A DNA stretch of 64,000 nt from Candidatus Saccharimonadota bacterium. GTDB lineage: Bacteria > Patescibacteriota > Saccharimonadia > Saccharimonadales > Saccharimonadaceae. Made by a program: the position numbers and the translations under genes. The notes under the pieces are model-generated. The model had not been told where the DNA came from and made no database searches. It was given only the letters and a program-made list of their open reading frames with translations. Below are positions 7,252-64,000 of the stretch, in pieces (the first letter of the stretch is position 1; every line of letters begins with the position of its first letter). The stretch spans positions 1-64,000 of the forward strand of contig JAFWHS010000003.1 of NCBI GenBank assembly GCA_017511925.1, in the 5' to 3' direction.

Positions 7252-7842
7252 ATGGCAGAAATTTCTGTAGAACAAATCAAAAAATTGAAAGAGCTTTCTG
7301 GTGCAGGTTTGACCGATGCTAAAAAAGCTTTGGTAGAAGCAGATGGTGATTTTGACAAAGCACTTGAAGCGATGCGCAAAAAAGGTTTGACCAAGGCTGA
7401 AAAGCGTGGTGACCGCGAAACTCGCGAAGGCTTGGTGGACGCCTATATCCACGACGGTCGTCTCGGCGCAATCGTAGAAGTAAACTGTGAGACTTCTTTT
7501 GTGGCTAAGACCGATGAATTTAAGACTTTGGCACATCAGATTGCAATGCAAGTAGCTTCAATGAATCCACTTTACGTATCTGAAGAAGATATTCCAGAAG
7601 ATGTGCGTAATGCTAAAATTAAGGAACTCGAAGCAAACTTCAAAGGTCCAGAAAATATGAAGGAGAAAATCCTTGAAGGCCAAATGAAGAAAGCTTTTGC
7701 CGATAAGGTTTTGATGAACCAACCTTATATTTTGGATGACACTAAAACCGTTGAGCAATTCATCAAGGAAGCGATTGCTAAAACAGGTGAGAATATCACT
7801 GTAAGGCAATTTAAGCGTATTGAGCTCGGCGTAACAGAGTAA
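7252..7842 (+). CDS. tsf: Translation elongation factor Ts
   Basis: 196 aa. The N-terminal UBA-like domain (IKKLKELSGAGLTDAKKALVE) and the TDTF-type dimer/EF-Tu contact region near GLVDAYIHDGRLGAIVEVNCETSFVA identify EF-Ts, the GDP-release factor for EF-Tu (encoded at 36326-37510). It is the short form, like that of Thermus, lacking the second core repeat and coiled-coil insert of longer orthologues. TAGGAGG lies seven bases before the ATG. It is co-transcribed with rpsB and followed directly by a long hairpin element that should end transcription. Confidence 0.96.
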   Translation: MAEISVEQIKKLKELSGAGLTDAKKALVEADGDFDKALEAMRKKGLTKAEKRGDRETREGLVDAYIHDGRLGAIVEVNCETSFVAKTDEFKTLAHQIAMQVASMNPLYVSEEDIPEDVRNAKIKELEANFKGPENMKEKILEGQMKKAFADKVLMNQPYILDDTKTVEQFIKEAIAKTGENITVRQFKRIELGVTE

Positions 7843-7848
7843 TCTAAC

Positions 7849-7953
7849 AAAAATATACCTTTTCGGGGACGGGTCGCTCGCTCCCGTCGTTACGGGCCCA
7901 AAGCCCTTAATCCTCGGTCGTGACCTCCGGACACCCCTCAAAGGTATATTTTT
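7849..7953 (+). repeat. Palindromic repeat element acting as tsf terminator (copy A)
   Basis: A perfect 14-bp outer stem (left arm 7849-7862, right arm 7940-7953, T-rich 3' side) encloses about 77 bases that fold further (GACGGG/CCCGTC, GGGC/GCCC). The flanks inside the stem, TCGGGGACGGG and CCTCGGTCGTGACCTCCGGA, recur almost unchanged at 63950-64000 inside der, which shows this is a dispersed element and not only a terminator. Confidence 0.75.
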
Positions 7954-7999: not shown

Positions 8000-8545
8000 A
8001 TGTTTGACACTAAAGAAGACCGCAAGAAAATGGAAGAAGTGGTCCAAAGATTTCAGGAAGAGATGAAAAAAGTGCGGACCGGTCGGGCGCATCCAGATAT
8101 GCTTTCTAGCATCAAGGTTGAAGCTTACGGGCAGTTTATGCCGCTAAACCAAGTAGCGAATGTTACAGCGGCGGATGCGACTTTGCTCGTGATTACTCCG
8201 TTTGATCCATCCACAATTCAGGCGATTGCGACAGCAATTAGAGCAGATCAATCCCTAGGACTTAACCCAGCAGATGATGGTCGCGTAGTGCGTGTACCAA
8301 TTCCAGCTCTTACCGAAGAACGTCGCAAAGAAATCGTAAAAAATGCGTCGGCAAAAGTGGAAAACGCCAAGGTAGCGCTTAGGAATGTGCGCGAAGATGC
8401 CCGCAAAGCAATTAAAGTCGCCGAAGAAATGGGTGAGGACTTAAAGAAACGTGCCGAGAAAGAAATCGACGATCTTACTAAGGAATTCAGCGACAAGATT
8501 GATGCTGAATTCAAAAATAAATCTGATGAAATAATGAAGATATAA
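8000..8545 (+). CDS. frr: Ribosome recycling factor
   Basis: 181 aa, the usual length. Conserved blocks include VRTGRAHPDMLSSIKVEAYG, VTPFDPSTIQAIATAI-like TPFD, and LTEERRKEIVK before a long coiled helix (about 105-180). RRF splits post-termination ribosomes together with EF-G. AAGGAG lies seven bases before the ATG, and uppS begins two bases after the stop, as in many bacteria where frr and uppS are adjacent. It has its own promoter behind the tsf terminator. Confidence 0.96.
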   Translation: MFDTKEDRKKMEEVVQRFQEEMKKVRTGRAHPDMLSSIKVEAYGQFMPLNQVANVTAADATLLVITPFDPSTIQAIATAIRADQSLGLNPADDGRVVRVPIPALTEERRKEIVKNASAKVENAKVALRNVREDARKAIKVAEEMGEDLKKRAEKEIDDLTKEFSDKIDAEFKNKSDEIMKI

Positions 8546-20163: not shown

Positions 20164-20416
20164 GATCCTTTTTTACCTCACTTGTTTTGTTATATGCCCC
20201 CTTGCGGTGCCACTTATTTTATTTATAGACACATGCACAAAAATGGCACCGCAAGGGGTGCAATATTCAGCCAGTTATGCTAGATCACATAAAAGTCTTG
20301 AAACCTTAACGGTGCCATTTGTACTTTTATGTGAAAAGCTATAAAAAACTCCTAGCACTTTATTAACTAACTGAATATTGCATTACCATTATAATATAGC
20401 TCTGTGCTTTGCGCAA
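20164..20416 (-). promoter_or_regulatory. Promoter and large folded leader of the FISUMP-protein gene
   Basis: Minus strand: TTGCGC (20416-20411), 17-base spacer, TATAAT (20393-20388), predicting a start at about 20382. The RNA would begin exactly with a 12-bp helix strand (20382-20371) that pairs with 20270-20259. Inside it is an 11-bp hairpin (20333-20323 with 20296-20286). Downstream is a perfect 15-bp hairpin (20258-20244 with 20212-20198). The loop of the 11-bp hairpin carries TGGCACCGTTAAGG on the minus strand, close to the 5' arm of the 15-bp hairpin (TGGCACC...). AAAGGA precedes the ATG. Confidence 0.7.
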
Positions 20417-63153: not shown

Positions 63154-63230
63154 GGTTCCGTCGTCTAGTGGTCTAGGACGTCTGGTTCTCATCCAGAAAA
63201 TCGCGGGTTCGACTCCCGCCGGAATCACCA
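63154..63230 (+). tRNA. tRNA-Glu (anticodon CTC), CCA encoded
   Basis: 77 nt including CCA. The acceptor GGTTCCG/CGGAATC (one G-U), the D-arm, the anticodon stem TCTGG/CCAGA with loop TTCTCAT, and the T-arm CGGGTTCGACTCCCG are all regular. It reads GAG. Confidence 0.95.
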
Positions 63231-63268
63231 AGCATTAAAAGAAGCCCTTTGGGGCTTATTTTAATGCT
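63231..63268 (+). terminator. Terminator after tRNA-Glu
   Basis: AGCATTAAAA/TTTTAATGCT with inner AAGCCC/GGGCTT: a 16-bp near-perfect stem directly after the CCA. Confidence 0.85.
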
Positions 63269-63279
63269 TTATGGTTCTA

Positions 63280-63413
63280 GTGGGAGGCGAACTTTAGTTC
63301 GCCCTTTCAAGGAAATGAGAGAAAAAGAAAAATTTATTTTTCTTTTTCCGAATGACGCAGAAAGGAAAGAATTTTGCAAAGCAAAATTCTTACTCCCGCG
63401 AGCTAACTCCCAC
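63280..63413. repeat. Multi-hairpin island (three perfect hairpins within a closing stem)
   Basis: GTGGGAG (63280-63286) pairs with CTCCCAC (63407-63413). Between them lie GGCGAACT/AGTTCGCC (63286-63293, 63296-63303), GAAAAAGAAAAA with its complement (63321-63332, 63337-63348) and AAGAATTTTGC/GCAAAATTCTT (63367-63377, 63381-63391), all perfect, with loops of 2, 4 and 3 bases. No credible protein is coded. Confidence 0.7.
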
Positions 63414-63456: not shown

Positions 63457-64000
63457 ATGAAAAAGTTACCAATAGTAGCATTGATCGGGCAAACAAATGC
63501 CGGCAAATCATCCTTGCTCAACCGGATGGCGCACAAAAATATTGCCATCGTAGCAAGGGAAGAAGGCACGACCAGGGATAATGTCGTGGCGACGATTGAC
63601 GACGCATTTGTTCTTATTGACACGGCGGGTCTTAAGGATCCGAACGATGATTTTGAAGCTTCAATTCAAGATCAGATTGCGGATGCGATTGATGTGGCCG
63701 ATGTGATATTGGTAACCCTAGATTCTTCGAAATATTTTGACCACAAAGATGCAAAAATTGCTAAAGATGCCTTGAGATCTGGCAAACAAGTATATCTCGT
63801 ACTCAACAAATGTGATCTTGCCGAATCCCTGCCAATCACGGAATTTAGAGCGCTTGGTGTTGCACCGGAAAATACCTATTATGTCTCGGCTACGACTGGA
63901 CAAGGCATGGCAAAGCTGAAGACAGGCTTAGAATCCGTCCTCTTTCGGGACGGGGTTCCTCACTCCTCGGTAGCGACCTCCGGAAGCCCTCAAGAGGAGG
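63457..64000 (+). CDS. der: GTPase Der (EngA), 5' part, runs off the window
   Basis: 181 codons are visible. IALIGQTNAGKSS-type P-loop (GQTNAGKSS), the switch DNVVATID, DTAGL (G3) and NKCD (G4) identify the first G domain of Der, a double-G-domain GTPase for 50S assembly; because the second domain is outside the window, a single-domain relative cannot be excluded. The frame stays open through a palindromic element (63950-64000) at the point where the inter-domain linker should lie, which reads FRDGVPHSSVATSGSPQEE. Predicted leaderless. Confidence 0.82.
   Translation, partial: MKKLPIVALIGQTNAGKSSLLNRMAHKNIAIVAREEGTTRDNVVATIDDAFVLIDTAGLKDPNDDFEASIQDQIADAIDVADVILVTLDSSKYFDHKDAKIAKDALRSGKQVYLVLNKCDLAESLPITEFRALGVAPENTYYVSATTGQGMAKLKTGLESVLFRDGVPHSSVATSGSPQEE
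63950..64000 (+). repeat. Palindromic repeat element inside der (copy B)
   Basis: CCTCTT (63950-63955) pairs with AAGAGG near the window end. The interior TCGGGACGGG and CCTCGGTAGCGACCTCCGGA matches the copy after tsf (7849-7953), with about 27 bases missing between the two conserved blocks. Confidence 0.7.

Follow-up and report, generated by a model that had tools for sequence, protein, structure and literature searches.

Palindromic elements of Saccharibacteria that insert in frame into genes carry an inverted copy of their flank and probably spread by fold-back copying

Introduction

Protein-coding palindromic elements have been known in Rickettsia since 2000, and later in Wolbachia. These elements are short, occur both between genes and in frame within many conserved protein genes, form several families per genome and have no known transposase (PMC2229807, PMC10969869). 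A review lists 12-bp terminal repeats for the Rickettsia elements (RPEs) and enters a question mark for their target duplication, and in the open-access literature we found no description of target-derived inverted outer stems for them.

Ordinary transposons and MITEs generate direct target duplications, and MITEs such as Correia, RUP and ERIC possess terminal repeats of fixed sequence. The elements described here resemble MITEs in being small, non-autonomous and dispersed, with inverted-repeat ends, but they are accompanied by an inverted flank copy instead of a direct target duplication and have no fixed terminal repeats, only the core ends TCGGG/CCCTC being shared while the outer stem is target-specific. 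REP/BIME sequences mobilized by RAYT (Y1) proteins, including the GTAG/CGTC-tagged REPs, are likewise palindromic and present in many copies, the REPs measuring 20–40 bp (PMC3733652). They are mostly extragenic, unlike the copies studied here, and the Y1 transposase is missing from 58 of the 60 genomes considered below, nearly all of which carry the element.

In the mitochondria of Nematomorpha, inverted repeats lie within translated genes and their arms are kept alike, for which template switching has been proposed, and in those of Magnusiomyces hairpins interrupt protein genes (PMC6649704). In the nematomorph palindromes, however, each arm encodes conserved protein sequence of the ordinary kind, and there is no mobile core. 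The Magnusiomyces hairpins, presumably those named ‘byps’ with reference to translational bypassing, are untranslated, whereas in our case the kept frame and the lack of stops point to translation.

Here, we analyzed a window of 64,000 nucleotides, located on contig C21 of an 832-kb Saccharibacteria genome in 24 contigs, together with related genomes. We report a family of small, non-coding mobile hairpins from Saccharibacteria close to Candidatus Nanosyncoccus. As had been proposed from the sequence of the window, the family is reminiscent of RPEs in its behavior: palindromic copies are several to many per genome (about ten in the genome of the window and up to 31 in relatives), they lie in frame in unrelated protein genes and relatives have empty orthologues. 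RPEs measure 105–146 bp, versus a core of about 75 nt here, about 100 nt with one arm and about 125 nt with both, and the present family differs in its GC-rich core and its phylum. A literature search restricted to open access yielded no earlier description of such elements, be it in Saccharibacteria or elsewhere among the Patescibacteria, and the association of a core with an inverted flank copy was found in no known system.

Results

The window holds two copies of one dispersed palindromic element, both on the forward strand. The first (7849–7953) is located between tsf (elongation factor Ts; 7252–7842 in the ORF list, with orthologues in 59 of 60 genomes) and frr (ribosome recycling factor, identified by sequence reading; 8000–8545), and its ends (7849–7868 and 7934–7953) are 90% complementary. 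An inverted repeat formed by the left outer arm (7849–7862, AAAAATATACCTTT) and the right outer arm (7940–7953, AAAGGTATATTTTT, then a T run) encloses the core (7863–7939, TCGGGG...CCCCTC), which was matched at 7859–7944 by our two covariance models, R1 and R2 (88.4 and 81.6 bits, respectively), and which features inner hairpin 1 (7883–7896, CCCGTCGTTACGGG) and inner hairpin 2 (7916–7925, GGTCGTGACC). The second copy lies within der, encoding the EngA GTPase, which occupies 63457–64000 in the ORF list and, upon further sequence reading, runs past the window on contig C21. Its left outer arm (63920–63944, AGACAGGCTTAGAATCCGTCCTCTT) is coding, its core (63945–63991, R1 match at 63940–63997 with 25.3 bits) is read as FRDGVPHSSVATSGSPQ, and the right outer arm starts at 63992–64000 (AAGAGGAGG...) and continues to contig position 64015, so that most of the full right arm (AAGAGGAGGATTCTCAAGCCTGCC) falls outside the window. 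The original prediction had located this copy at 63950–64000; it is indeed present, but its true extent is 63920–64015. Both palindromes and the two blocks that they were said to share, TCGGG(G)ACGGG and CCTCGGTnGnGACCTCCGGA, were found as described. The first inner hairpin (CCCGTCGTTACGGG) is missing from the der copy, which is therefore a deletion derivative. Allowing at most one mismatch, CGACCTCCGGA occurs three times in the window versus 0.37 expected, and an Rfam search of the window returned tRNAs only and no match to the element.

Using the tsf copy as a BLAST query, further copies were retrieved from the same genome, where the covariance model R1, built without the der copy, gave 11 matches at E ≤ 10, including nine at E ≤ 0.003 and a best E-value of 1e-19. 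The covariance model thus indicates about ten copies in this genome. The intergenic copies follow tsf and precede a heat-shock-like operon, with the rplA terminator as a third terminator-type site, and the genic copies are in frame within polA, argS, pepN, trmD, queA, der, a GTPase gene of contig 1 and an O-antigen ligase-like gene. The copy in the last gene has an E-value of 0.07 with R1 and 6e-8 with R2, and the truncated rplA copy one of 1.4 with R1. The model R2, built from 39 copies, gave 600 matches in 60 genomes of the same genus, 56 of which were positive, with 0 to 31 matches per genome. At E ≤ 1e-4, R2 had no match in 284 genomes from other genera of the phylum, where at most 15 candidates were scored per genome and weak relatives could escape, while a deeper family-level search revealed weak relatives of the element in three other genera (G350, G359 and G364). 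The family is thus mainly one of this genus, surrounded by older relatives. The covariance-model search suggested at the outset thereby uncovered copies in the genome itself and in its relatives. A plain tsf terminator and a normal, variable Der linker that resemble each other by chance would agree with the differing lengths of Der linkers and with the T run that ends the tsf element; this reading, to which we attach virtually no probability, is refuted by some 600 copies in 60 genomes, by E-values down to 1e-19 in the same genome and by the filled and empty orthologous sites presented below, all of which bear out the proposal of a mobile palindromic repeat.

The conserved core, hereafter E, measures about 75 nt. 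It is closed by a GGG/CCC helix and contains two hairpins: hairpin 1 (CCCGT/ACGGG), whose variable lower stem shows full compensation, and hairpin 2. In an alignment of 111 copies, changes on both sides were found in at least one copy for 13 of the 16 predicted pairs; hairpin 1 is conserved with covarying pairs, and two of the three predicted pairs of hairpin 2 vary freely with compensation, the third doing so rarely. Because both strands are open to folding, DNA and RNA folding are indistinguishable here.

The outer stem has a sequence specific to each copy and yet pairs with itself. Counted outward from the core, its median score was 14.5, versus 1.0 for a null obtained by swapping left and right flanks between copies, and 93% of the copies exceeded the 99th percentile of this null. 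The arms are mostly 18–25 nt long, and in 93% of the copies they form an inverted repeat of about 24 nt that is specific to the target. With regard to age and arm decay, arm match was not correlated with core similarity (Spearman −0.08) among the copies studied, which are the best-scoring ones and in which young insertions are possibly over-represented. Outer stems that differ while remaining self-complementary had been noticed from the two copies of the window and attributed to compensation; the observation is correct, but the arms are better described as a flank and its inverted copy, as detailed below.

We then considered the position of 110 distinct copies, comprising those of the same genome and the best-scoring ones of its relatives. 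A large majority, 84, are in frame within long ORFs that extend beyond the copy at either end; 39 of these copies face one way and 45 the opposite way, and all six frames are used. The other 26 include 21 that overlap no ORF of at least 80 aa, two that only touch an ORF end and three ambiguous cases, and no clearly broken gene or out-of-frame copy was encountered among the 110. As all frames are used and none is out of frame, out-of-frame insertions are presumably lost through selection. About 34 groups of host genes were distinguished, named by sequence reading with ten proteins checked against Pfam, and their products include MnmA, TruB, Der, Obg, LepA, PolA, GatB, UvrB, AlaS and IleS as well as TopA, UvrC, LigA, Tgt, PheT, TsaD, DnaX and RecX. 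When read, a genic insert amounts to approximately 20–45 extra residues. Judging from the kept frames, copies located in housekeeping genes would be translated with their hosts, as was anticipated for the der copy.

Two host proteins were checked against structures or a model. In a model of Der with its insert (L024), of modest quality with a mean pLDDT of 68, residues 166–193, which correspond to the insert between the GTPase domains, have a pLDDT below 50, and known TrmD structures align with the sequence flanking the insert and skip the insert itself. The der insert thus sits in a flexible linker and the trmD insert in a loop between conserved blocks. In Der, the span from NKCD to RPN measures 80 aa here versus 63 aa in the shortest orthologues; extra residues are therefore present, in frame, in the linker as predicted, although they number 17 rather than about 19. 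The orthologues, which originate from Saccharibacteria MAGs mostly of ruminant gut and include Candidatus Nanosyncoccus alces, share 72–87% identity in the best segment, and the comparison of der between strains that had been advised revealed at least 15 species without the extra residues. Neither of the two outcomes named beforehand as refuting the proposal, a lack of further copies or der orthologues that all share the residues, was thus obtained.

Empty orthologous sites were identified for trmD, mnmA, der and others. In 20 pairs of filled and empty orthologues, from which der was excluded on account of its variable linker, the filled gene was longer by 102.6 nt on average, the predicted gain being 74.7 nt for the core alone, 99.3 nt for the core plus one arm and about 124 nt for the core plus two arms. 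The 23 empty genic sites displayed no inverted repeat beyond chance (maximum of 6.5 versus a 95th percentile of 7.5 in random controls). Since the empty sites are devoid of an inverted repeat and the gain equals the core plus one arm, the insertion itself creates the inverted flank copy.

The trmD site provides a detailed illustration, with a region of 31 aa when empty (AREFARDAHYIILC and similar) and of 55–98 aa when filled, both orientations and several element types being found at one place. Filled genes show, in order, the upstream residues, which are kept, the element, an inverted copy of the upstream codons and HYIILC. By eye, the native arm in trmD is mostly the upstream one; alignment scoring was decisive in about half of the pairs, with upstream leading downstream by approximately 10 to 4, and opposed the reading by eye in one trmD pair. 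Comparison of filled and empty sites, made between species, shows a change that reads as X-Y to X-E-X'-Y; here, X' repeats in inverted form about 20–25 nt of the flank X. Because X' is copied from X, a locally derived stem closes nearly every inserted hairpin.

The alternative that the element inserts solely into the loops of pre-existing hairpins, the outer stems being old, derives its appeal from the terminators. Relatives have ordinary short terminator hairpins at the tsf site, and the element occupies the terminator loop in two species, that of the window and G050; the left outer arm of the tsf copy is probably the stem of the original terminator. The stem at tsf may thus be older than the element, so that this site provides no test of arm origin. 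The tsf copy had been taken for the terminator itself: it does stand at a terminator site, but as an element within the loop of a hairpin that is ordinary in relatives. The rplA terminator of the same genome (G000:C24:85318-85349, L023) harbors a truncated copy whose outer arms (ATATACCTTT) are the same as those of the tsf copy, an identity that copying or conversion between the two may explain. Against such an origin of the stems stand the 23 empty genic sites without an inverted repeat above random and the gain, in filled genes, of the core plus one arm instead of the core alone. Pre-existing hairpins are hence contradicted for genes, could still hold for terminators and, as a sole explanation, appear very unlikely.

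In nine species with an insertion in der, the likeness of the arms is 0.82 within a copy versus 0.67 between species. Either the arms were converted to each other or the insertion recurred at one place; unless insertions recurred, later arm conversion is therefore at work in der. This resemblance of the der arms within each copy across several species would also be expected if stems were maintained by selection for RNA or DNA pairing or by arm conversion, with little bearing on how the insertion arose, and conversion has been proposed to maintain the coding palindromes found in mitochondria of Nematomorpha (PMC6649704). We nevertheless regard maintenance as an improbable substitute for inverted copying at insertion, as it accounts neither for an insertion that exceeds the core by one arm nor for the similar stem length of nearly all copies at unrelated sites.

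At the trmD and der sites of other species, we also found elements with different cores, one of them coding for ...STSYTGTPAEPSLRDEP..., and again with target-specific stems. That unrelated cores share the insertion signature argues for an origin in host DNA handling or in one enzyme with loose demands. A second family, whose core is ACGTCATAC..AATATACGT and whose stems are likewise target-specific, was observed in der of L059, L088, L092 and L097, in trmD of L153 and in L101; several of its copies share an inner arm (GACTTGAATTTT...), as if arms from an earlier site had traveled with the core. Nested events were encountered as well: an insert of about 35 nt, TTGCCTTCGGCAATTCGCGTCCCAAGGGGCGAGCG, lies in the loop of inner hairpin 1 in L232:1546-1663 and L249:1475-1592, with a related one in L247:1552-1673. 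In L172 (pepN) and L160 (trmD), the element end and flank are tandemly duplicated within the insert, which suggests that templates were switched repeatedly. Within the window, three overlapping nested pairs of inverted repeats in an intergenic gap (20198–20382) are possibly another palindromic element.

Discussion

We consider it quite probable that the family has inserted many times, in frame and between genes, together with an inverted copy of the flank, as established by comparison of sites, and that it moved by folding back, as we infer from the product. Fold-back copying is the best fit to this product, which the comparison shows, every step being a reconstruction. A growing DNA strand would pick up E via a template switch, and the self-complementary ends of E (TCGGGG/CCCCGA) would allow the new 3' end to fold back. 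The folded 3' end would then copy the strand just made, from X to X', over 20–25 nt or about two helix turns, before rejoining the old template at Y. Similar switches would possibly keep the arms alike later on. In yeast, fold-back inversions arising from single-stranded hairpins have been described (PMC7467729). Closer to the locus, positions 63207–63292 of the window form a 41-nt inverted repeat (80%, with a 4-nt loop), the left arm of which comprises the 3' end of a tRNA gene (63154–63227) and a terminator stem, and the right arm its inverted copy. This looks like the fold-back extension of a terminator hairpin, an event of the same type without the mobile core, and thereby supports fold-back copying.

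The main rival to fold-back copying is an enzyme, from the host or the element, that would cap a broken end with E, nick the other strand some 20–25 nt away and join the far end, yielding the same X-E-X'-Y in a manner likened to P nucleotides at opened hairpins. Such an enzyme would account for arms of rather uniform length, often 18–25 nt, and for a signature common to several unrelated cores, but no candidate emerged for it. A Y1 transposase (PF01797) is present in just two of the 60 genomes, and reverse transcriptases, present in 40 of 60, are unrelated to copy number (p = 0.47); we rejected both as drivers, and view end capping as unlikely. The genome of the window encodes two reverse transcriptases (G000:C24:205139-205762 and C24:123604-124170), which possibly belong to diversity-generating retroelements.

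A broader interpretation, to which we give somewhat less than an even chance, is that these elements represent an undescribed mode of DNA mobility, in which unrelated short hairpins would spread by fold-back copying as a property of host replication or repair instead of through an element-encoded enzyme; the Rickettsia elements may move alike. The family appears to be an independent case of protein-coding palindromes from a different phylum. Hundreds of copies are spread over dozens of species, several element families occur and both filled and empty sites are available, and the insertion signature of a core plus an inverted flank copy hints directly at the mechanism, in a way that can be tested. 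The case also means that highly reduced genomes, those of tiny parasitic bacteria, lengthen essential enzymes with selfish DNA, and hence that the gene models and structures of Saccharibacteria hold many such inserts.
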